47,817 bases of DNA. It comes from Pseudomonadota bacterium. Lineage in GTDB: Bacteria > Pseudomonadota > Gammaproteobacteria > Burkholderiales > Burkholderiaceae_C. Position 1 is the first letter of the stretch; every line of letters begins with the position of its first letter. Of the stretch, positions 2,514-15,889 are shown piece after piece. The stretch lies in contig JAFECU010000287.1 in NCBI GenBank assembly GCA_018242005.1, positions 1 through 47,817 of the forward strand. The letters run 5' to 3'. The position numbers and the translations under genes are program-made. Under the pieces are notes generated by a model. That model made no database searches. It was not told the origin of the DNA and saw only the letters and a list, made by a program, of their open reading frames with translations.

Positions 2514-3653
2514 ATGATCATTTCCTCCAGCGCCGACTACCGCGCAGCCGCAGAGAAGTTTCTGCCGCCCTTTCTGTTCCACTACATCGACGGCGGCGCC
2601 TATGCCGAGCAGACGCTCAGGCGCAACGTCGACGACCTGTCGGCCGTGGCGCTGCGCCAGCGCGTGCTCAAGGACATGAGCCAGCTCGACACCAGCATCG
2701 AGCTGTTCGGCGAAAAGCTCTCCATTCCAGTGGCGCTGTCGCCCGTGGGCCTGACCGGCATGTACCGCCGCCGCGGCGAGGTGCAGGCCGCGCGCGCGGC
2801 CGACGCGCATGGCATTCCGTTCACCATGTCCAGCGTCTCGGTCTGCCCCATCGAGGAGGTGGTGCCGCAGATCAAGCGCCCGATGTGGTTCCAGCTCTAC
2901 GTGCTCAAGGACCGCGGCTTCATGCAGAACGCGCTCGAACGCGCGCAGGCCGCGGGCTGCTCGACCCTGGTGTTCACCGTGGACATGCCCGTGCCCGGCG
3001 CGCGCTACCGTGACGCGCATTCGGGCATGAGCGGCCCCAACGCCGCCATGCGCCGCTACCTCCAGGCCGTGCTGCACCCGCGCTGGGCGCTGGACGTGGG
3101 CCTGCTGGGCCGCCCGCACGACCTGGGCAACATCTCGGCCTACCGCGGCAGTCCCACGGGCCTGGCGGACTACATGGGCTACCTGGGCGCGAACTTCGAC
3201 CCGTCGATTTCGTGGAAGGACCTGGAGTGGATTCGCGCCTTCTGGAAGGGCCCCATGGTCATCAAGGGCATCCTCGACCCCGAAGACGCCAAGGATGCCG
3301 TGCGCTTCGGCGCCGACGGCATCATCGTCTCCAACCACGGCGGGCGCCAGCTCGACGGCGTGCTGTCCTCGGCGCGTGCGCTGGGGCCAATAGCCGATGC
3401 CGTCAAGGGACAGATCAAGATCCTGGCCGACTCGGGCATACGCAACGGCCTGGACGTGGTGCGCGCCCTGGCCCTGGGCGCGGACTGCGCCATGATAGGC
3501 CGCGCCTACATCTACGCGCTGGCCGCCGCCGGCGAGGCTGGCGTCAAGCAGCTGCTGGAGCTGCTGGAGAAGGAAATGCGCGTCGCCATGACGCTGACCA
3601 GCGTGGGCCGCGTGGCCGACATCTCGGGCGAGATGCTGGTGCGCGAGTCATGA
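2514..3653 (+). CDS. lldD: FMN-dependent L-lactate dehydrogenase
   Basis: This 379-residue protein is a member of the FMN-dependent alpha-hydroxy-acid dehydrogenase family. It oxidises L-lactate to pyruvate and passes electrons to the quinone pool at the inner face of the membrane. The N-terminal region carries [13 protein letters not shown] (around residue 22). The FMN/substrate site has [10 protein letters not shown] (around residue 272, with the catalytic His), followed by ADSGIRNG and [11 protein letters not shown] near residues 300-330. Length and motif order match E. coli LldD (about 396). It is the last gene of the lld operon. Glycolate or mandelate oxidase alternatives are unlikely given lldP and lldR. 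Confidence 0.93.
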
Positions 3654-4085
3654 TCCCCGGAGCCCGGCCCGGGCGGCGCATTCGCAAGGGCCACTTGAGG
3701 GCGCTCGCCGAGTGCTGCCCCTGGTGCGCCACGGCACACTGCTGAACCAGTAGCAGCTGGCCGCCGAGGTGCCCCCCCCCGGGGCAAGCTCTACGACGGC
3801 CACTTCTTCCGCCATGCGGTCCACCAGGCCTACATCGTGAAGAAAGGCCCGGCGCCAAGGTCAGGGCATTTCACATTTGGGAACGGCTGGCCGCGCGCCG
3901 CGCCGAGTCCCCCGCCGGGCACAACATAGGCCACCGCTGCGTGGCCAAGCCGGCATTGGCCCCACCCATTGCGGCGCGTCCACATTCGCGGCCCATACAC
4001 CCCCCATCCCAGCGGCGCAGCCGGCTCTGCCGCGGCTGCCTGTCGCGATCGGAAGTCAGCTCAGGGTTTTCCCCAGCCCCCACCA
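3654..4085. other. Gene-poor stretch after lldD, with C9 tract and possible gene remnant
   Basis: No convincing gene is seen here. Around 3690-3860 the plus strand reads like degraded coding sequence: an in-frame stop (TAG at 3751) is followed by a run of nine C then four G (3772-3784), then an open stretch reading GKLYDGHFFRHAVHQAY before protein-like signal is lost. I could not assign the remnant to a family. The poly-C run is the longest homopolymer tract noticed in the window. The stretch separates the lld operon from the signalling operon. Confidence 0.4.
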
Positions 4086-4103
4086 CACCGTCGAACAATT
4101 GCT

Positions 4104-4119
4104 TGCAAATTAATTTGCA
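4104..4119. promoter_or_regulatory. Perfect 16-bp palindrome upstream of signalling operon
   Basis: TGCAAATTAATTTGCA is identical on both strands and lies in a strikingly AT-rich patch (about 4095-4190), 194 nt upstream of the ATG at 4313. Perfect palindromes of this size in an AT-rich upstream region are typical of binding sites for dimeric regulators. Which protein binds, and the exact promoter hexamers, cannot be decided from sequence. Confidence 0.5.
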
Positions 4120-4230
4120 CTTAGTTACTCTTGCAACAAACAAAGGCGTAACAACAAGTTAACAAAGACAAGACAAAGTGCGCCAGAAAGACGTCGATAA
4201 CAGTTCATGCCTGCCTTCAGCCTGCTGCAC

Positions 4231-4263
4231 CCAGATCCTTCGAACCGTTCGAACGAGATCTGG
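4231..4263 (+). promoter_or_regulatory. Inverted repeat in the leader of the signalling operon
   Basis: The outer arms CCAGATC (4231-4237) and GATCTGG (4257-4263) enclose inner arms TTCGAAC (4239-4245) and GTTCGAA (4247-4253). Together they could form a strong hairpin in the 5' leader, about 50 nt before the start codon at 4313. As DNA, it could also be an operator with TTCGAA half-sites. No T-run follows, so it does not look like a terminator. Confidence 0.45.
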
Positions 4264-4312
4264 CTTGCAGCCTTGAAGGCGGCAGCAGCACAACAGTCCC
4301 GAGGAGCATGCA

Positions 4313-6145
4313 ATGACCGAGATTTTCGGTGACCAACCGCCTGAACGAGAGGCAACGAAGATCCTGCTGGTGGAGGACAGCTTCGCGAATCGCGACATGC
4401 TGACGCGGCGGTTGACACGCCGCGGCTTCACGGTCTGCAGCGCAGCCGATGGCCCCACCGGCGTCGCCATGTCGGTCTCGGAGCGGCCCGACCTCATCCT
4501 GATGGACGTGGCCCTGGGCGAGATGGACGGCTGGCAGGCCACCCGGCTCATCAAGGCCGATGTCCGGACGCAGGCCATCCCCATCATTGCATTGACCGCC
4601 CACGCGCTTGCCAGCGACAGGGCGCAGAGCATCGAGGTCGGCTGCGCCGACTTCGATACCAAACCTGTCGACCTGTCGCGCCTGCTGAGCAAGATCGACG
4701 GCTGCCTGACGAGCGCGGCCCAAGGTGCCAATACCAACCAGCGTGACCCCGAAGCTCATGAAGAGCACCTCAAAGGAGTGAAATCCATGTCGAAGCTTGA
4801 TCCAGTTGCAGCGCTGACAGGCAGCGTGCGCGACTTCCGCGAACTTCAGGGTATCGACCTGATGGCCCGCGTCGACGCCTTCTACGAATGGCAGGATCTA
4901 CGGCGCAAGAGTAGCCTGTGGCCGTACTCTCGATCGACACAAGAGGCGCCGCTATCCGTCTGCACTGCACTCGACGACAATGGACAGAAATTCAAAGGAC
5001 TGAATTTTGGGACGCAGGACTACCTCGCTCTTTCGTCGCACCCCTCGATCAAAGAGGTAGCCAAGGCGGTGATTGATGAATACGGGGTTCACAGCGCCGG
5101 CTCATCAGCCCTGGCGGGCAACACCAAATACTCGCTTCTGCTGGAGCAGACGATCTCCGGTTTCCTCAACCTGGAACACACGACGCTCTATCCAACGGGC
5201 TGGGCTGCCGGCTACGGTGTCATCAAGGCTCTGATCAGGCCGACAGACCACATCGTGATGGACGGCCTCGCGCACGCCTGCCTGCAGGAGGGCGCGTACT
5301 CGGCGACCGCGAACGTGCACCTGCATGGCCACCTCAACCTCGACTCGGTTCGTCGCCACCTGAAACGAATTCGTGCCAAGGACACGGTCAACGGCATCCT
5401 CGTGGTGACGGAAAGCCTGTTCTCCATGGATTCGGACACGCCAGACCTGCGGGCGTTGCAAAGCCTGTGCGACGAGTATGACGCGACTCTGCTCGTCGAT
5501 GTTGCCCATGACCTGGGCGCCATGGGCCCGGGCGGCAGGGGTTTCATTGGCGAGCAGGACATGCTGGGCAAGGTTGATATCGTCATGGGGAGCTTCTCCA
5601 AGACGTTCGCGTCAAACGGCGGCTTTGTTTCCAGCAATTCGCCTGCCGTCAAGCAATACCTCAAGTACTACGGCTGCACGGCAACGTTTTCCAACGCGCT
5701 GTCGCCGGTCCAGGCCGCCACGGTCACCAAGGCATTTGACATCATCAAGTCCGAAGAAGGCCTGCGACTTCGCACGGTACTCAGGCAACGTATTGAGGAA
5801 ATGCGCGAGGCCTTGACACAGGCCGGTCTGCAGCACATGGGCAACCCCTCTCCCATCGTGCCGGTCCGCGTGGGCGACGAGGCCCTGGCGCGTCTCGTGA
5901 GCCGGCGCCTGCCGGCGCTGGAGGTCATCGCCAACCTGGTCGAGTATCCCGCCGTCGCCAAGGGTGACGCCCGCCTGCGCCTGCAAATGATGCCGACGCA
6001 CAGCCTGGAGAACGTGCGGATGCTGGCCTCAAGGCTGCGCACGGCCATCGATCATGCACAGATCGAGCATGTGCGCCATCGCGCCGCCGTAGCCGGGTTC
6101 GCCCGCCCGGTCGCCGCAGATACCGAGGCAGCCGAAACGGCGTGA
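4313..6145 (+). CDS. Response-regulator receiver fused to PLP-dependent alpha-oxoamine synthase
   Basis: This 610-residue protein has two parts. Residues about 15-130 are a CheY-like receiver with the acidic pair E21/D22, phospho-acceptor D65, T95 and K117 all present. Residues about 200-590 are an alpha-oxoamine synthase (the fold of BioF, KBL, ALAS and serine palmitoyltransferase, and of the autoinducer synthases CqsA and LqsA). This part has the PLP-stacking His in DGLAHACLQEG (H321), the pyridine-binding Asp and His in DVAHDLG (D396, H399) and the Schiff-base Lys in GSFSKTF (K430). Such enzymes condense an acyl thioester with an amino acid; the substrates here are unknown. The start at 4313 has GAGGAG at 4301-4306. 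An in-frame ATG at 4787 with its own Shine-Dalgarno sequence could yield the enzyme alone (452 residues). The stop overlaps the next gene by 4 nt. GC content looks lower than in flanking genes. Confidence 0.85.
   Translation: MTEIFGDQPPEREATKILLVEDSFANRDMLTRRLTRRGFTVCSAADGPTGVAMSVSERPDLILMDVALGEMDGWQATRLIKADVRTQAIPIIALTAHALASDRAQSIEVGCADFDTKPVDLSRLLSKIDGCLTSAAQGANTNQRDPEAHEEHLKGVKSMSKLDPVAALTGSVRDFRELQGIDLMARVDAFYEWQDLRRKSSLWPYSRSTQEAPLSVCTALDDNGQKFKGLNFGTQDYLALSSHPSIKEVAKAVIDEYGVHSAGSSALAGNTKYSLLLEQTISGFLNLEHTTLYPTGWAAGYGVIKALIRPTDHIVMDGLAHACLQEGAYSATANVHLHGHLNLDSVRRHLKRIRAKDTVNGILVVTESLFSMDSDTPDLRALQSLCDEYDATLLVDVAHDLGAMGPGGRGFIGEQDMLGKVDIVMGSFSKTFASNGGFVSSNSPAVKQYLKYYGCTATFSNALSPVQAATVTKAFDIIKSEEGLRLRTVLRQRIEEMREALTQAGLQHMGNPSPIVPVRVGDEALARLVSRRLPALEVIANLVEYPAVAKGDARLRLQMMPTHSLENVRMLASRLRTAIDHAQIEHVRHRAAVAGFARPVAADTEAAETA
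4772..4789 (+). promoter_or_regulatory. Internal ribosome binding site and start for the synthase domain
   Basis: AAAGGAG (4772-4778) is followed after 8 nt by an in-frame ATG (4787-4789). It lies exactly in the linker between the receiver and the synthase domain. The spacing and match to the anti-Shine-Dalgarno sequence are as good as at any start in this window. It suggests either a second, synthase-only product or the relic of a formerly separate gene whose upstream stop codon was lost. Confidence 0.55.
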
Positions 6146-7548
6146 GGGACATGCAAGTGGTACTCACCCATCGCCTGATCCAAACGGTGGACTGGTTCAT
6201 CCCAGTCAGGCTGCAAAAGAGTACCGCAACGCTGTGGCGGGCCAGAATCTTTGTCATCAGCCATGCTCTGGGGCCCTTCAGCGGAGTCGCCATACTGGGG
6301 TACCTTCATCAGGTGCTCACGGTGCACGATTGGGCGTTCTGGCTCCTCAGCGTCCTCTGCGCCTCGTTCTGGACTTTGCCGTTCGCACTCAGGCTGTCGG
6401 GCGATCTGTTCAGGCCTGCGCTCTACTCCTTCTGCACCCTTACCAGCATCAGCATCTTTGGATCCTTCTTCTACGGCGGCGTAAGTTCCCCGCTCCTGCC
6501 GTGGTTTCTGACGGCGCAGATGATCGGGTTCTTCTATCTGGGTGATAGGCCGCGTCTCGTGCTCGGCGTCATCGGCGCGAACCTGGCGGCTTTCGCCGCA
6601 GCCTATCTCATCAATGGATCGTTCCCCGACCAGGTATCGCTTCAAGATCTTTCCACCGCAGGCATGATTTCCGCCTGCGCGGCCACGCTCTACAGCTCGA
6701 TGATGGCGATCTACTACGCCTACGTCATGGTCGCGCATTCGGCGCTACAGGAGGAAATCAAAAGCCACCTAGAAACCGCCGCCAGGCTGCGCGTCGCCAA
6801 GCATGAGGCGGAGCGCGCCAACGAGGCCAAGGCCGTCTTCCTGGCGAAGATGAGCCATCAACTGCGAACCCCCCTGAACGCCATCATTGGCTACAGCGAA
6901 ATTCTCCTGGAGGACGCAGAGACGAGCGGACCGGGGGGGAGCAGCGATGAATTGCGATCCATCAACAATGCGGGCCGCCACCTGTTGTCGCTGGTCTCGG
7001 ATGTCCTGCGCATGCCGACGGGCGATACCGAATCGGACGATGTGGATGTCAGACTTCAAACGGTCGATCTCGATCGCTGCCTGGAAGAGCTGTCCGCCAC
7101 CTGCCGTACCCTGGTGGCGAGCAATGGGAATCGGTTTGCCCTGGAAAAATCTGGCGAACTGGGCTCAATCCAGACCGATGAGGTTCGACTGCGACAGATC
7201 CTGATCAACCTACTCGGCAATGCAGGAAAGTTCACACGCAACGGCACCGTGGTAGTGCGCGCGCGGCGCGCAACCGAAGGGGAACGCGAACAGGTGCTCA
7301 TCTCCGTGAAGGACACGGGCATCGGAATTTCCACCGAAGCCATTCCCAAGCTGTTCAAGAATTTCAACCAGCTCAATGCAGGCCAGTTTGCCGGAAGTGG
7401 ACTGGGCCTGGCCGTGAGCCAGAAGTTGGCCCACCTGTTGGGCGGTGATATTTCGGTCGAAAGCCAACTGCACCGCGGATCGGAGTTCACGCTACGACTG
7501 CCAGCGATGAACCCGGCAAGCGCCCCGGCAATGGCGCTTGCGGCGTGA
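6142..7548 (+). CDS. Membrane sensor histidine kinase, first of a tandem pair
   Basis: This 468-residue kinase has about six hydrophobic segments in residues 25-205, including the motif YGGVSSPLLPW. A short helical linker is followed by a HisKA domain with KMSHQLRTPLNAIIGYSE (phospho-acceptor H239). The HATPase_c domain has the N-box NLLGNAGKFT (N360), DTGIGIS and GSGLGLAVSQ. The residue after the phospho-His is Gln rather than the usual Glu/Asp. The chosen start is GTG at 6142, overlapping the previous stop (GTGA). An ATG at 6151 is possible, but the GTG places the shared VDWFIP motif at the same distance as in the downstream paralogue. It has no receiver domain of its own, and receivers are encoded on both sides of the pair. 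Confidence 0.87.
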   Translation: MRDMQVVLTHRLIQTVDWFIPVRLQKSTATLWRARIFVISHALGPFSGVAILGYLHQVLTVHDWAFWLLSVLCASFWTLPFALRLSGDLFRPALYSFCTLTSISIFGSFFYGGVSSPLLPWFLTAQMIGFFYLGDRPRLVLGVIGANLAAFAAAYLINGSFPDQVSLQDLSTAGMISACAATLYSSMMAIYYAYVMVAHSALQEEIKSHLETAARLRVAKHEAERANEAKAVFLAKMSHQLRTPLNAIIGYSEILLEDAETSGPGGSSDELRSINNAGRHLLSLVSDVLRMPTGDTESDDVDVRLQTVDLDRCLEELSATCRTLVASNGNRFALEKSGELGSIQTDEVRLRQILINLLGNAGKFTRNGTVVVRARRATEGEREQVLISVKDTGIGISTEAIPKLFKNFNQLNAGQFAGSGLGLAVSQKLAHLLGGDISVESQLHRGSEFTLRLPAMNPASAPAMALAA

Positions 7549-7579
7549 CGGGCCCCATGAATACGAACAGGTGAATGCC

Positions 7580-9010
7580 GTGAAAATCCGACTCGCAAAC
7601 CTGGCGCCAAGACTGAACGCGGCGGTTGACTGGTTCATCCCCGCAGGCCTGAAGCCGTCGCGAGACACCTTGCAGGGCGTGCGGATGTTCCTGTTCAGCC
7701 ATTTCTTCGGCCCTTTCCTGGGGAACACGGTCACGCTGTCGATGCTGTATCTCGGCGCTGAGGCCGACCTCTCCTGGTGGATACTCTTCCTCGCGGTGTC
7801 GGGCTTCTGGATCTATCCGATCCTGCTGCGACTGACCGGCTGGTATGTGCCCCTGGCATTGATCTCGATCGAAGAACTCCTGTTCTGTATTTTTTGGGGC
7901 TCCTATCAGTACGGCGGCATCAACTCGCCGATCATGCCGTGGCTGGTCACCGTTCCGCTGCTGGCCTTCTTCTACCTGCCCGAGCGCTCGACCCGCATCA
8001 TTGTCGCGGTGCAGATCGTCGCCAATCTCCTGCTGTTTTATGGCATGTATGCCATGGTGGGGTTCAACGAAACCATGTCGAGTGACGGCCTGGTCTCCCT
8101 CGGCCTGATATCGACCTTCTGCGCCAGCGTCTACGTGTCGATGATGGCGCTCTACTTCGCGAGCATCGTGTATTCGCAGGGTGAACTCGAGCAGGAGATC
8201 AGCCAACACAAGGCGACCGAGCAGCAGTTGCTGGACGCCACCGACCAGGCACAGCGCGCACTGCTGGCCAAGTCGGTGTTCCTCGCCAAGATGAGCCACG
8301 AGTTGAAAAACCCGCTCAACGCCATCATCGGCTACAGCGAACTCCTCATCGAGGAGGCCGACACAGCGGATTCGCAGAAGCGCAAGGATCTGACCTCGAT
8401 CGAGGGTGCGGGCCACCGGCTGCTGGGGCTGATCGACAACCTCCTCGAGCTCTCGAAACTCGAAGCCGGCAGGGTTGAGGTGAATGCCAGGGACGTTGAC
8501 TTTGCGGCGTGGTTCGAGAAGCTCGCTGCCCGTGCCGGGCCGTCGATTGCGGCCAACCGGAACGAATGGATAGTTCAGGCGCCGAAGGAGGGGCGCATCG
8601 TCTGCGACGTGCAGATGCTGCAGCGTGTGCTCGATGGTCTGCTGAGCAACGCCGCCAAATACACCCGAGGCGGGCGGGTCATATTCTCGGCCTGCATGAG
8701 TGATGGCTGCTGGATAGTGTCCATCGTGGACACCGGCGCCGGGATTCCACAGTCACGGATGGCAAGCCTGTTCGAGACCTTTGGCAGTTCCGAAGATGAA
8801 ACGTCGAGCAGGTACGGGGACGAGGCCGGCCTCGGACTTCCGCTGGCCTATCGGTATTGCCAATTGATGGGCGGCACGCTGTCCGTGTACAGCGAGGTCG
8901 GCGTGGGCACCAGAGTCACCGTCACCTTGCCTGCGCAAGCGCGCGGCGCAGCGAAGGTTCTCCCTGCACCGGCTGCTCCCCTGATCCAGATCCCGATGTT
9001 GACCCCTTAG
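7580..9010 (+). CDS. Membrane sensor histidine kinase, second of a tandem pair
   Basis: This 476-residue paralogue of the preceding kinase has the same layout: VDWFIP near the N terminus, about six membrane segments with YGGINSPIMPW, and a HisKA domain with KMSHELKNPLNAIIGYSE (H240). The HATPase_c domain has the N-box LLSNAAKYT (N357), DTGAGIP and a late glycine loop AGLGLPLA. Here the canonical His-Glu pair is intact. The GTG at 7580 was chosen because AGGTGA lies just upstream and its N terminus then aligns residue for residue with the upstream kinase. The frame is open back to 7538. The conserved membrane region suggests that both kinases sense related signals. The stop is 9 nt before the next gene. 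Confidence 0.85.
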   Translation: MKIRLANLAPRLNAAVDWFIPAGLKPSRDTLQGVRMFLFSHFFGPFLGNTVTLSMLYLGAEADLSWWILFLAVSGFWIYPILLRLTGWYVPLALISIEELLFCIFWGSYQYGGINSPIMPWLVTVPLLAFFYLPERSTRIIVAVQIVANLLLFYGMYAMVGFNETMSSDGLVSLGLISTFCASVYVSMMALYFASIVYSQGELEQEISQHKATEQQLLDATDQAQRALLAKSVFLAKMSHELKNPLNAIIGYSELLIEEADTADSQKRKDLTSIEGAGHRLLGLIDNLLELSKLEAGRVEVNARDVDFAAWFEKLAARAGPSIAANRNEWIVQAPKEGRIVCDVQMLQRVLDGLLSNAAKYTRGGRVIFSACMSDGCWIVSIVDTGAGIPQSRMASLFETFGSSEDETSSRYGDEAGLGLPLAYRYCQLMGGTLSVYSEVGVGTRVTVTLPAQARGAAKVLPAPAAPLIQIPMLTP

Positions 9011-9019
9011 GCGGTACCG

Positions 9020-10927
9020 ATGAACGCAAACCACTCCATTTCGCAAACCGGTCGTGAGCTTCAGGATATCGGCCGCGCCATTGACGGCAGGCCAAGCGCG
9101 GCCAACGAGGACAAGCCGCGCCTGCTCATCGTTGATGATGTCTTCGAGAACCGCGAAATACTGAGGCGCCGTTTCCAGCGGCAAGGCTTCGATGTGACCG
9201 ATGCCGCCGGCGGCATCGAAGCGCTTGACTTGCTGGAGCGCGAGGCGTTCGATCTCGTCCTGCTGGACATGATGATGCCCGACCTGAGCGGGCTCGAAGT
9301 GCTGGCGCATATCCGATCCAAGCACTCGCAGGGTTCGCTGCCGGTCATCATGGTGACGGCCAAGACCCAGAGCGAAGACGTCGTGGAAGCCTTGAACCAC
9401 GGCGCGAACGACTACATCACGAAGCCGGTGGATTTTTCGATCGCGCTGGCCCGCGTCGTCACGCAGGTCGAACGACGGCGTGCGGAGGTGAAGATCCACC
9501 AAATGAACGAGGAGCTTGCGCGCGCCAACGAGGCGCTCGAACGTCGCGTTGCCGATCGGACCAAGGACCTCGTTCACGTCAATCAACAGCTTCGCAGCGA
9601 GATCGAGCAGCGCGAGAGAACGCAGGCGACGATCACGCACCTGGCCCACCATGACGCGCTGACGGGACTTGGCAATCGCCTGCTGTTCCACAAGGAGCTT
9701 GGCGATGCGCTGGCGCACCGGCAAAGGCATGGCGGCGATCTGGCCGTTATGTTCATCGACCTGGATGGCTTCAAGGCCATCAACGACACGCTCGGGCATG
9801 CGACCGGAGACTTGTTGCTCAAGCACCTGGCCACGCGCTTGCGCAACACGCTGCGCGAAGGCGACAAGATCGGTCGGTTGGGTGGCGACGAATTCGCCAT
9901 CATCCAGTTCGGCGCGGGACAGCCGGACGAAGCCGGGGCCCTTGCCAAGCGCTTGATCGAGACCATACAAGTCCCCTTCAGCGTCGATGGTCAGAATCTG
10001 GTCGTCGGCGCCAGCATCGGCATTGCGCTGGCGGGGGGCGACTACCAGGACTCCGCCCAGCTGCTCAGGGCGGCGGATCTGGCGATGTACCGGGCAAAGA
10101 CAGAAGGACGCGGCCGATTCCTGTTCTTCGAAACCGACTTCGACCGGCAGGTCAAGGAGCGCCGCGAGCTCGAAGTCGCCCTGCGTACCGCCGTCGAACA
10201 GGACGCACTCGAAATTCACTACCAGCCCCAGGTCAACCTGCAGACCGGCCGCGTAAGCGGGTTCGAGGCGTTGTCGCGCTGGCAGGATCCACAGCGCGGC
10301 TACGTGCCGCCTAACATCTTCATCACGCTGGCCGAGGAAATCGGGCTGATCGGCGTCATTGGCGAGCGGATACTCAAGCGCGCCTGCGCCGAGGCAGCAA
10401 GCTGGCCGCCTGATACCACGGTCGCCGTGAACCTGTCCGCCGCGCAATTTCAGCGCGGAGACCTGGTGTCCGTGGTACAGGAGGCCCTAGCCGCTTCAGG
10501 GCTGGAGCCAGGGCGGCTGGAGGTGGAGATCACCGAGTCGATCTTTCTCCAGGGCAGCGAATCGAATCTTCAGGTTCTCAGCCAGCTCGGGGCGCTCGGT
10601 GTCAAGATTTCCATGGACGACTTCGGCACGGGCTATTCGAGCCTGAGCTACCTGCGCAGCTTTCCGTTTCACAAAATCAAGATCGATAGATCCTTCGTCG
10701 GCGATCTGCCGGACGGGCAAAGCAGCGTTGCCATCGTGCGCGCCGTCTGCGGGCTGGCGCGCAGCTTCGGCGCAGCGACGACGGCCGAAGGTGTCGAAAC
10801 CGAAGGCCAGCTCGCGCATATCCGCACCGAGGGGTGCACCGAGGTGCAGGGCTACATCTTCAGCAAGCCGATACCCGCCAGCGAGATTCCAGCACTTCTG
10901 TCGGGGTCGCTTCTGCCATCGACATAG
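9020..10927 (+). CDS. Response regulator with GGDEF and EAL domains (c-di-GMP turnover)
   Basis: This 635-residue cytoplasmic protein has three domains. The receiver (about 33-150) has D39/D40, phospho-acceptor D83, T113 and K135, and is followed by a coiled-coil linker (about 150-200). The diguanylate cyclase domain has an intact GGDEF (288-292) and an upstream RxxD inhibitory site (REGD). The phosphodiesterase domain has an intact EAL (416-418), DDFGTGYSS and KIDRSF. Both catalytic signatures are complete, so it could make or break c-di-GMP. The receiver is the likely target of the two upstream kinases. It is the last gene of the operon. Which activity dominates cannot be read from sequence. 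Confidence 0.93.
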   Translation: MNANHSISQTGRELQDIGRAIDGRPSAANEDKPRLLIVDDVFENREILRRRFQRQGFDVTDAAGGIEALDLLEREAFDLVLLDMMMPDLSGLEVLAHIRSKHSQGSLPVIMVTAKTQSEDVVEALNHGANDYITKPVDFSIALARVVTQVERRRAEVKIHQMNEELARANEALERRVADRTKDLVHVNQQLRSEIEQRERTQATITHLAHHDALTGLGNRLLFHKELGDALAHRQRHGGDLAVMFIDLDGFKAINDTLGHATGDLLLKHLATRLRNTLREGDKIGRLGGDEFAIIQFGAGQPDEAGALAKRLIETIQVPFSVDGQNLVVGASIGIALAGGDYQDSAQLLRAADLAMYRAKTEGRGRFLFFETDFDRQVKERRELEVALRTAVEQDALEIHYQPQVNLQTGRVSGFEALSRWQDPQRGYVPPNIFITLAEEIGLIGVIGERILKRACAEAASWPPDTTVAVNLSAAQFQRGDLVSVVQEALAASGLEPGRLEVEITESIFLQGSESNLQVLSQLGALGVKISMDDFGTGYSSLSYLRSFPFHKIKIDRSFVGDLPDGQSSVAIVRAVCGLARSFGAATTAEGVETEGQLAHIRTEGCTEVQGYIFSKPIPASEIPALLSGSLLPST

Positions 10928-10939
10928 TGCCCGCCCGGA

Positions 10940-10956
10940 GCCCTGACAGCCAGGGC
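10940..10956. terminator. Short hairpin between convergent genes
   Basis: GCCCTG (10940-10945) and CAGGGC (10951-10956) form a 6-bp stem with a 5-nt loop, 12 nt after the GGDEF-EAL stop. It lies between convergent genes. No T-run follows, so intrinsic termination is doubtful. Confidence 0.3.
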
Positions 10957-10972
10957 AGGCCATAGAACGGGC

Positions 10973-11407
10973 TCAGCAGCCGCCCTCGACCTTGCAAGTT
11001 GGAACGATCTGGCCGCTGGAATCACGCCACTGAATCTCGCCGCCGCCAGGGACCGGTGCGCTAGCTGGCGCCGCTGAAGGCGCGGCGTGCCGCTGCGGGT
11101 CATGCAGCACGGTTGCTGCGCCCACGCCCGCACCGACTCGCGCCCCACCCACGCCGGTGGACGCGCCCACACCCGCACCGCCAGTCACCTGTCCGCGCTG
11201 GTTCACACCGACGCCTACGCCCACGGGCCCCGCACCCGCCCCCAGCCCGGCACTGACGCCGCCCGTGCCCACGCCCACGCCAACGGAGAGCGGACCGACG
11301 GGGATGCCGACCCCCACGCCGGCGCCCAGCGAGCCGCAGCCCGTCAGCATGGCGGCCAGTGCCAAGGCCGGTGCGGCGCCGGACAGTGCGTTCGATGGGC
11401 TCAGCAT
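10973..11407 (-). CDS. Gly/Val-rich putative lipoprotein
   Basis: This 144-residue protein has a short signal sequence ending in a lipobox-like MLTGC, so it is probably an outer-membrane or periplasmic lipoprotein. The body is dominated by alternating Gly-Val/Gly-Ala repeats (GVGVG-type, about residues 30-105) with almost no charge. A short polar tail follows, containing EIQWRDSSG and two cysteines at the end. No family was recognised. The ATG at 11407 was chosen because it starts the signal sequence. It lies 22 nt downstream of the htpG stop on the same strand and may be read through from it. Confidence 0.6.
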   Translation of the reverse strand: MLSPSNALSGAAPALALAAMLTGCGSLGAGVGVGIPVGPLSVGVGVGTGGVSAGLGAGAGPVGVGVGVNQRGQVTGGAGVGASTGVGGARVGAGVGAATVLHDPQRHAAPSAAPASAPVPGGGEIQWRDSSGQIVPTCKVEGGC

Positions 11408-11429
11408 GGCGGGCCGTTGTGCGGGCCAA

Positions 11430-13391
<1,962 letters not shown>

Positions 13392-13630: not shown

Positions 13631-14218
13631 TCAAGCCGAAGCCGCGCCTGCAGCCGGGCGCCGACGCAGGCCCATCAGGCCGAGCAGGCCCAGCCCCAGC
13701 AGGGCAAGGGCACCGGGCTCCGATACGGCGCGCCAAACACCCGAGTAGATGGGGCGATTGTTTGGAGTGGTCGGCCCATAGTCCGAGTTCAGGTAGCCAG
13801 ACCACAGATCGGTGCCGCTCGTGGACATGAAAATGTCGTGAAACTGGGAGTTGGTCCTGATGCTTCCCTGGAGATGGTCGCCGCCTTGCAGGCTTGCATC
13901 CATCAGGCACAGCCACGGGGATTCGCAGCGTTTGTCCACCATGTTCACAAAAATATCCAGCGCGGAAAAATTGACGGCGGAAATGTTGGAGTTGGAATAC
14001 TGGGTCGCCGGATCCAACGGCCAACCGGCGGTTCTCACATGCAGTTCCCCCGTGAGCCCGCTCATGCTGATCGTCAGGGAATTCAGCGCGCTGCTCCAAT
14101 CCGTGCAGAACGGCCCCGAGCACCCCATGTCAGTCACTTCAAACTGGTAGACGGTCGTGGCGTTGGCCCCTGCCGTCATACAAGCAGCCGTGGCAATTGC
14201 AACGAATATCTTGCGCAT
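13631..14218 (-). CDS. PEP-CTERM sorting-domain exported protein
   Basis: This 195-residue protein begins with a Sec signal peptide (MRKIFVAIATAACMTAGANA) and ends with a PEP-CTERM-type signal. The C-terminal signal consists of SEPGALALLG, a hydrophobic helix and an RRR basic cluster. Such proteins are processed by an exosortase and sent to the envelope or exopolysaccharide matrix. The middle part has four cysteines and no recognised domain. The start at 14218 has GGAGG nine bases upstream. No exosortase gene is in the window. It shares a divergent upstream region with the gene at 14440. Confidence 0.8.
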   Translation of the reverse strand: MRKIFVAIATAACMTAGANATTVYQFEVTDMGCSGPFCTDWSSALNSLTISMSGLTGELHVRTAGWPLDPATQYSNSNISAVNFSALDIFVNMVDKRCESPWLCLMDASLQGGDHLQGSIRTNSQFHDIFMSTSGTDLWSGYLNSDYGPTTPNNRPIYSGVWRAVSEPGALALLGLGLLGLMGLRRRPAAGAASA

Positions 14219-14439
14219 ATGCTCGTACCTCCATCTAGTCGTCAATGTCGATAGGACAGCACAAGGGTAGCAAAAAAATAAGTGCTCACTTACGCAAAAT
14301 CAGCCATCAAATCACGAGATTTTGTAAAAGCAGACTCGGACAGTGGCAACCGTTGCCGGCCAGTTCCTGCAGCTGCTTGTGCGAAGGAGTGCTCCTTACT
14401 ACGATGCAGGCTTGCTCACACCGATATTGGAGTGTTTTC

Positions 14440-14934
14440 ATGACCCGCTATCTCAAGGCCTTGTTGGCCGCAGCCGGCCTGCTTGGCGCCATGGCCGTCC
14501 AGGCGCAGTCCTTGCCAGCCGACGCGCCTGCCGGCACCACGGTCCAATGCCGGGACGGCAGCTACGCAGCGCCCACCCAGAAGGCCGGGGCCTGCAAGGG
14601 CCACAAGGGCATCAAGAACTGGTATGGCAGCGCCACCAAGGCAGCGGCGGCGGGTGGCGCCGCCGCCGTGGAAACGCAGTCGTCCGCGGTGAGCAAGACC
14701 GGCGTGGCGCCAGCCACCGGCAGCACCAGCAAGAGCCCCGGTTCGCCCGACCGGCTGGACATGCCGGCCGCCCCCGGCGGCGGCCCGGGCAAGGTCTGGG
14801 TCAATGAATCGTCCAAGGTCTATCACTGCCAGAGCGACCGCTACTACGGCAAGACCAAGAATGGCGAATACATGAGCGAGGCCGACGCCAAGGCCAAGGG
14901 CATGCGCCCGGCCGGCAAGAAAAGCTGCAGCTGA
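14440..14934 (+). CDS. Secreted DUF3761-like protein
   Basis: This 164-residue protein has a signal peptide (about 1-22, ending AVQAQ). The segment TVQCRDGSYAAPTQKAGACKG, followed by HKGIKNWYG, resembles the DUF3761 cysteine/glycine pattern. After an Ala/Ser-rich linker, a C-terminal segment carries YHCQSDRYYGKTKNGEYMS and ends in KKSCS. Function is unknown. The ATG at 14440 was chosen because TGGAG stands about 8 nt upstream and the signal peptide begins there; the open frame further upstream has no signal. It is transcribed divergently from the PEP-CTERM gene. Confidence 0.7.
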   Translation: MTRYLKALLAAAGLLGAMAVQAQSLPADAPAGTTVQCRDGSYAAPTQKAGACKGHKGIKNWYGSATKAAAAGGAAAVETQSSAVSKTGVAPATGSTSKSPGSPDRLDMPAAPGGGPGKVWVNESSKVYHCQSDRYYGKTKNGEYMSEADAKAKGMRPAGKKSCS

Positions 14935-14959
14935 TCGGGCTTGACGGTGCCCGCCGGCT

Positions 14960-14984
14960 GGGCGAGCTTCAGAAGCGCTCGCCC
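14960..14984. terminator. Hairpin at a convergent gene junction
   Basis: GGGCGAGC (14960-14967) and GCTCGCCC (14977-14984) form an 8-bp stem with a 9-nt loop between the convergent genes ending at 14934 and 14969. It overlaps the last codons of the pseudouridine synthase. There is no T-run, so its role as a terminator is uncertain. Confidence 0.3.
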
Positions 14985-15889
14985 GGCGCCAGGTAGCGCC
15001 ATTGGCCCTGCGGCAGCTTGCCCAGCAGCACATGGCCTATGCGGATGCGCTTCAGGCCGACCACCTTCAGGCCGACCTGCTCGCACATGCGGCGGATCTG
15101 GCGCTTCTTGCCTTCGGTGAGCACGAAGCGCAGCTGCTCGGGATTCTGCCAGTCCACCTGCGCGGGCTTGAGCGCCTGACCGTCCAGGACCAGGCCATGG
15201 CGCAGCCGCGTCAGCTGTTCGCGCGGGAAGGCAGCCTGCACATTGGTGCCCACATCGCCGTATTGCACACGCACCAGGTATTCCTTGTCCACGGCCGAGT
15301 CCTCGCCAATCAGCTGGCGCGCCACGCGCCCGTCCTGTGTCAGCACCAGAAGGCCCACGGAGTCGATGTCCAGCCGCCCGCAGGGCGCCAGGCCCTTGAG
15401 TTGCGACGGGGAAAAGCGCGTGCGGCTGACGTCGCCCTGCCAATGCGTGCGCGGGTTGATGAGGGTCACGGCCGGGGTGTGGCCGTCCTCGGCCTGGCCG
15501 CTGACATAGCCCACGGGCTTGTGCAGCAAGATGGTGACCTGCTGGCTCTGGCGGCCCTGGGCGGCGCGGTCGACCTCGATGCGGTCCTGCGGCACGACCT
15601 GCAGGCCCATGACCGCCACCTGGCCGTTGACGCGCACCCAGCCCTGGGCGATCCAGTCGTCGGCCTCGCGGCGCGAGCACAGGCCCAGGTCGGCCATGCG
15701 CTTGTTCAGGCGCATGCGCCCATCGGTTGCGGCAGCGGTCTGCACCTTCGGAGCGCGCGCCGGCATCGGGCGCGACGCAGCGGGCGCCGCCGCAATGGCG
15801 TCGGGGCGGCGCAGCACCAGGCGCTGGCGCGGCGCGGCGGTTGACGGTGCGGGGGCGGGAGCTTGGGGGCGGGAGGGCGTATCGGGCAT
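14969..15889 (-). CDS. rluF: 23S rRNA pseudouridine synthase, RluF type
   Basis: This 306-residue protein has a Pro/Ala-rich N-terminal extension (about 1-58) and an S4 RNA-binding domain (MRLNKRMADLGLCSRREAD, from about residue 60). A catalytic RsuA/RluB/RluE/RluF-family domain follows, with GRLDIDSVGLLVLT carrying the catalytic Asp. Within the family, VDKEYLV and RQIRRMCEQVGLKV resemble E. coli RluF (Psi2604 in 23S rRNA) more than RluB or RsuA. The start is set at 15889 (MPDTPSRPQ). It stands alone between a convergent gene and a Crp/Fnr regulator. The exact target uridine is inferred from similarity only. Confidence 0.8.
   Translation of the reverse strand: MPDTPSRPQAPAPAPSTAAPRQRLVLRRPDAIAAAPAASRPMPARAPKVQTAAATDGRMRLNKRMADLGLCSRREADDWIAQGWVRVNGQVAVMGLQVVPQDRIEVDRAAQGRQSQQVTILLHKPVGYVSGQAEDGHTPAVTLINPRTHWQGDVSRTRFSPSQLKGLAPCGRLDIDSVGLLVLTQDGRVARQLIGEDSAVDKEYLVRVQYGDVGTNVQAAFPREQLTRLRHGLVLDGQALKPAQVDWQNPEQLRFVLTEGKKRQIRRMCEQVGLKVVGLKRIRIGHVLLGKLPQGQWRYLAPGERF

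Follow-up and report, generated by a model that had tools for sequence, protein, structure and literature searches.

A conserved gene cluster joining an alpha-oxoamine synthase, two membrane kinases and a c-di-GMP enzyme: a candidate small-molecule signalling module of Burkholderiales

Why should an alpha-oxoamine synthase be encoded together with two membrane histidine kinases and a cyclic di-GMP (c-di-GMP) enzyme? The question is raised by a four-gene locus at positions 4313–10927 (+ strand) of the window, i.e. the whole stretch of 47,817 nt analysed here, contig JAFECU010000287.1 of a Burkholderiaceae_C genome (GCA_018242005.1; 3.96 Mb in 313 contigs). Our reading, to which we assign a probability of roughly 0.57 on the strength of sequence comparisons, is that the locus encodes a self-contained small-molecule signalling module in which two kinases would control both a c-di-GMP output and the synthase. 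A preliminary description of this DNA had proposed a system related to, but distinct from, the Cqs and Lqs quorum-sensing systems, with a self-made molecule sensed by one or both kinases. The synthase phylogeny and the survey of gene neighbourhoods are in keeping with a distinct and conserved system, although the fusion of a receiver to the synthase is not universal and the synthase also occurs in genomes with no match to the sensor domain of the kinases.

The first gene (P0001; 4313–6145, 610 aa) encodes a receiver (REC; residues 17–128, 4361–4696, by Pfam and motifs) fused to the synthase, whose pyridoxal phosphate (PLP) domain covers residues 229–575 (4997–6037, by Pfam and the active-site table). 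It is followed by the membrane histidine kinase HK1 (6142–7548, GTG start, 468 aa), its paralogue HK2 (7580–9010, GTG start) and a REC-GGDEF-EAL protein (9020–10927, 635 aa), all on the + strand. These assignments rest on ORFs and Pfam, together with the tree clade for the first gene, motifs for the other three and the kinase tree for HK2; the Pfam matches are, in gene order, Response_reg and Aminotran_1_2, HisKA and HATPase_c (twice), and Response_reg, GGDEF and EAL. The ORFs bear out the gene arrangement described before, with gaps of -4, 31 and 9 nt, the second being counted to the HK2 start at 7580; the ORF list also gives a TTG at 7538 opening the same frame upstream of this GTG. Pattern searches of the window proteins matched the REC sites, the H, N, G1, F and G2 boxes of both kinases, and GGDEF with RxxD as well as EAL, so that both output domains keep their motif patterns. 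The receiver phosphorylation-site patterns were matched in all 11 rows checked, the window among them.

The four genes form a conserved unit. In the family scan (299 genomes, E <= 1e-40), 107 genomes gave any match and nine, including the window's own, made up an upper tier, with G142, G040, G074 and G046 at 76–90% identity and G076, G030, G259 and G159 at 50–52%; the remaining matches listed had 29–36% identity, except G155 (57%, receiver only). Matches at the level of the synthase clade described below were found in 3 of 398 other genomes in the order scan and 7 of 397 in the phylum scan, G585 being common to both, and a scan of genome contigs gave nine loci, eight of them at 75–91% and several from genomes already met in the preceding scans. 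The same arrangement of receiver/synthase, HK1, HK2 and REC-GGDEF-EAL was seen in the Burkholderiales relatives L052, L054, L055 and L057, and also in L056 and L058, where the last gene runs to the contig end (the bin of L058 carries an Acidobacteria label, perhaps through misbinning). L042 keeps the gene order with no receiver before the synthase, and L053 and L060 run off their contigs. Thus, as a neighbourhood check proposed earlier had called for, the genes stay together in related genomes, the order holding in every Burkholderiales relative with a long enough contig. The flanks mostly differ among these loci, with L052 sharing those of the window and an OmpW gene being common to L056 and L058. 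As the order recurs in other genomes and dN/dS against the same-genus L052 is low (0.13, 0.15, 0.17 and 0.08 for the four genes in order), the gene set is more than a chance assembly.

The synthase belongs to none of the known families with which it was compared. In a tree of 63 rows (65 gathered, less the short L074 and L111), the window and 21 relatives formed a single clade (22 of 22 rows, support 100/100, stem 1.49), apart from 11 CqsA-type (NF005526), 8 serine palmitoyltransferase (SPT; NF047599, proteobacterial rows only) and 7 ALAS (TIGR01821) rows, and equally separate from the groups that contain Escherichia coli KBL and BioF, so that the synthase does not fall inside any of these biosynthetic clades. 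Nor did its score reach the cut-off for any of the synthase models listed. The candidates rejected on these grounds were the CqsA/LqsA autoinducer synthases (NF005526, 174 bits against 428; outside the 100/100 CqsA-type clade), BioF (TIGR00858, 262 against 426), SPT (three NCBIfam models, 204, 230 and 143 bits against 500, 640 and 670), KBL (TIGR01822, 197 against 493) and ALAS (TIGR01821, 184 against 338.55). With the clade held together with CqsA, SPT, KBL or BioF, the approximately unbiased (AU) test gave p values of 0.43, 0.42, 0.16 and 0.08; hence no single sister family is singled out, and sister relations to CqsA and to SPT are both compatible with the data.

An ordinary metabolic enzyme (BioF, KBL or a sphingolipid synthase) that came to lie in a signalling operon by accident would explain why the synthase is the only BioF-like match at E <= 1e-50 in G000, G142 and G046, a finding that counts against a function other than in biotin synthesis. 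However, bioB is present in the same-genus genomes G004, G226 and G295, in which the synthase gave no match at E <= 1e-40. Conversely, it was not detected in G046 or G511, both of which hold a synthase of the clade. Since the occurrence of the synthase does not follow that of bioB, the synthase is probably not a biotin enzyme, and with the model scores given above and the repeated linkage of the synthase to the sensor described below, such an accident appears exceedingly improbable.

All nine positions fixed in the 63-row alignment are present in the window synthase, including the PLP-binding lysine K430 and H321, D396, H399 and R556, and these core residues are shared with CqsA/LqsA, BioF, KBL, SPT and ALAS. 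The earlier statement that all catalytic residues are present therefore holds for the core set, but not at three further positions. Q235 is found in all 22 clade rows where 37 of the 39 rows of the five other groups have N; position 300 is G (as in the window), A or C in 22 of 22 rows and N in 38 of 39; and V397, in 21 of 22 rows, stands in place of an E or D found in at least 38 of 39 (L018 and L019, both ungrouped, were not counted). As near-invariant residues are thus replaced, the substrate pocket probably differs from those of the other families.

The kinases share a membrane sensor domain (HK1, 6142–6768; HK2, 7580–8209) over which Pfam gave no family in any of the scanned proteins. Over their first ~210 residues, HK1 and HK2 matched each other in hhalign (E 2.4e-48), and the HK1/HK2 sensor also matched the beginning of three sensor-GGDEF-GGDEF-EAL proteins, those of L072, L077 and L078 (112–128 columns, probability 97%, E 5e-11/2.6e-12). 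Against nine CqsS-like sensors, drawn from 9 of 11 neighbourhoods, the probability in this sequence test was under 1%, and a CqsS/LqsS-type sensor on the window kinases was accordingly rejected. When genomes were scanned with a sensor alignment built from synthase-linked loci, 4 matched in the phylum scan (219 genomes) and 7 in the family scan (190 genomes), the window's own being in both; the matches were strong (E <= 1e-50) in G000, G439 and G511 of the phylum scan and in G000, G142, G040, G046, G074 and G094 of the family scan. In these scans, which were not chosen by the synthase, seven of the eight strong-sensor genomes hold a clade synthase (6/7 without the window's own genome), and the sensor was found in 8 of 15 genomes picked for holding one. 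We do not rely on a Fisher test of 11/18 against 1/216 (p 1.6e-13), since eight of the 11 positives came from synthase-picked genomes, the 216 were assumed to be synthase-negative, and the genomes are not independent. The co-occurrence of sensor and synthase, and their linkage described below, suggest that a self-made molecule may be the ligand of the kinases.

Sensor and synthase are linked in four layouts: i) the operon; ii) L068 (in G511), where HKa and a REC-GGDEF-EAL gene lie on one strand and HKb and a receiver gene on the other, followed beyond these kinase units by a gene for a barrel protein (opposite strand) and then the synthase; iii) L147, a plasmid of Pseudorhodobacter turbinis (NZ_CP039965.1), with a barrel protein (by eye), synthase, sensor kinase and receiver; and iv) a sensor-GGDEF-GGDEF-EAL gene beside the synthase (G585, G928 and G955), which in L072 (G585) are followed by a long acyl-AMP ligase-like protein and a free sensor domain. 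G439 and G562 contain the same two kinase units as G511, with the synthase on a different contig; all three are classed in the phylum of the window, their placement in Alphaproteobacteria being only a guess. An OmpW gene lies directly upstream of the receiver in L056 and L058, and barrel genes occur in L068 and L147. Passage of a hydrophobic molecule through the outer membrane is conceivable.

A kinase tree (24 sequences, excluding the sensor-GGDEF-GGDEF-EAL proteins and the incomplete HK1 of L053) grouped HK1 with HKa and HK2 with HKb, each with 100/100 support, indicating that the kinase duplication is older than the split of these lineages. In three genomes (L068, L144, L136/L141), HKb directly precedes the receiver gene and HKa the gene for REC-GGDEF-EAL; it is therefore likely that HK2 is paired with the receiver-synthase and HK1 with the REC-GGDEF-EAL protein. 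In agreement with the latter pairing, the L147 kinase is of the HK1/HKa type (on a long branch) and precedes a receiver whose closest counterpart is the one in the REC-GGDEF-EAL protein (50%). With narrow patterns, the G2 box was unmatched in HK2 of L042 and L054–L058, and RxxD-GGDEF and KxD in the REC-GGDEF-EAL protein of L068; activity may differ from one lineage to another.

Several findings weigh against a self-sensing module. The sensor alignment, coming from synthase-linked loci, favours the finding of synthase-linked relatives. G094 has the sensor kinases and no clade synthase, its contig of 4380 bases stopping at the start of HK1, where the synthase would begin; weaker sensor matches occur without a clade synthase in G305 (E 1.6e-9) and G027 (E 4.9e-18). 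In 7 of the 18 clade-synthase genomes tested (G076, G030, G259, G159, G582, G453 and G483) no sensor match was obtained, which indicates other uses of the synthase family. In L042 the synthase is cut at about window residue 206, with unrelated DNA upstream, by either a real truncation or a misassembly. At other loci (L071–L074, L149) the synthase has carrier-protein, acyl-AMP-ligase-like or ketosynthase-like genes in its vicinity (named partly by eye), so that the family also serves metabolite pathways. The sensor-less genomes and the biosynthetic neighbours, together with a synthase fused to a cyclic-nucleotide domain in L059, would suit a regulated pathway without self-sensing, in which the cue perceived by the kinases comes from outside or from the envelope, while the synthase makes an effector (a lipid, pigment or antibiotic precursor) switched through the receiver along with c-di-GMP. 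We consider this unlikely, though well worth keeping in mind: a strong sensor is accompanied by the synthase in all but one of the eight genomes noted above, G439 and G562 hold both though unlinked, and the four window genes are not interrupted by any further biosynthetic gene.

The self-sensing module could work as follows, if we infer correctly the product, the ligand, the phosphotransfer pairs, the direction of c-di-GMP change and the effect of the receiver on the synthase. Enzymes of the oxoamine-synthase class condense an amino acid with an acyl thioester, and the window synthase would thus convert an amino acid and a fatty acyl thioester into an alpha-aminoketone-type molecule. This molecule or a derivative would be sensed by the membrane sensor shared by HK1 and HK2. 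HK1 would then phosphorylate the receiver of REC-GGDEF-EAL and so set c-di-GMP, and HK2 the receiver fused to the synthase (in relatives, the product of a gene immediately ahead of it), adjusting signal production.

A synthase gene beside a sensor-kinase gene, the trait of Cqs and Lqs, is found in the window and its relatives, and the window system is closest in layout to the Legionella Lqs system (LqsA, LqsS/LqsT, LqsR). According to PMC10653808 and PMC3376566, the latter also combines an oxoamine synthase with two membrane kinases homologous to each other and with a receiver protein whose output resembles GGDEF, this output being degenerate in LqsR (PMC10653808). In the window, in contrast, the REC-GGDEF-EAL protein has intact motif patterns and a receiver is attached to the synthase. 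The Vibrio Cqs system (CqsA, CqsS) likewise has a PLP synthase with the same core residues and a sensor-kinase gene nearby, but a receiver was matched within the kinase ORF for five of nine CqsS-like kinases and for neither window kinase, and the window adds the changes at Q235, G300 and V397 and a c-di-GMP enzyme in the operon. With BioF, KBL, SPT and ALAS the synthase shares the PLP lysine and the other fixed positions. Could the locus then be a diverged member of the alpha-hydroxyketone systems? The common logic, the Lqs layout and the CqsA sister relation that the AU test did not reject speak for it; orthology nevertheless fails by sequence, as seen in the NF005526 score, the separate 100/100 clades and the absence of detectable homology to CqsS-like sensors, and we regard such descent as highly unlikely. 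The label "related but distinct" fits the scores, tree and sensor comparison, with the sister relation to CqsA left standing. Alike in layout but, on these tests, not a member by descent, the system would work like Lqs rather than belong to it. Among the matches listed in the open-access literature (titles and beginnings of abstracts), no system with this layout was found.

More tentatively, at somewhat less than even odds, this may be a second, separately evolved form of cell-cell signalling by oxoamine synthases: a synthase subfamily with a changed active site and an aminoketone-type signal, its own membrane sensor wired to c-di-GMP enzymes in two protein architectures, and feedback onto the synthase by phosphorylation of a receiver, which is fused to it in some lineages. 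If so, a signal and receptor family outside Cqs/Lqs would exist in Burkholderiales and at least one named alphaproteobacterium, with a direct genetic link from a self-made signal to c-di-GMP.

As to the fusion, a single ORF encodes receiver and synthase in the window and in L052, L053 and L054, but there are two genes in L055–L058 and L060; the fused receiver described earlier is therefore correct for the window and not a general trait. We infer that fusion is the derived state. Comparison of the junctions places Met159 (ATG at 4787–4789, + strand) where the unfused relatives begin their synthase, and AAAGGAG precedes it at 4772–4778, making this a putative internal start from which free synthase may still be made.

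Some further features of the clade loci were noted. At 10800–11400 of L042, unrelated DNA carrying a YCII-like ORF (by eye) takes the place of the 5' end of the receiver-synthase gene. The L059 fusion (10386–12185), with a cyclic-nucleotide-binding domain, lies beside a receiver protein with a GCV_H match. In L072, the long protein encoded right after the synthase, from about 10.7 kb to 14630, looks by eye like an acyl-AMP ligase joined to an acyl-CoA dehydrogenase and a carrier domain, and the free sensor domain is at 14637–15260. In L073 (839–8014), a 1937-aa ORF comes after the synthase; its start resembles an acyl-AMP ligase (by eye), and it contains a second oxoamine-synthase match (33%) at 6989–7990. 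L149, a Streptomyces clavuligerus plasmid, has a 44% identical synthase with carrier, ketosynthase and adenylation-like genes alongside (by eye).

The region upstream of the operon (3900–4312, + strand) aligned with that of L052, with its 3' half well conserved. An AT-rich stretch there contains the perfect 16-bp palindrome TGCAAATTAATTTGCA (4104–4119), imperfect in L052, and TTTGCAC was found again upstream in L054 and L056. Rfam gave no match in the window at gathering score, and in 3640–4400 no promoter-like site was found and one terminator-like site, on the - strand, was not above shuffles. The neighbouring genes (named by eye) encode lactate permease, a GntR-type regulator and lactate dehydrogenase on the 5' side and HtpG on the 3' side, and among the loci compared recur only at L039/L052 of the same genus. 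Further along, a protein encoded at 13631–14245 (- strand) seems, by eye, to end in a PEP-CTERM sorting signal.

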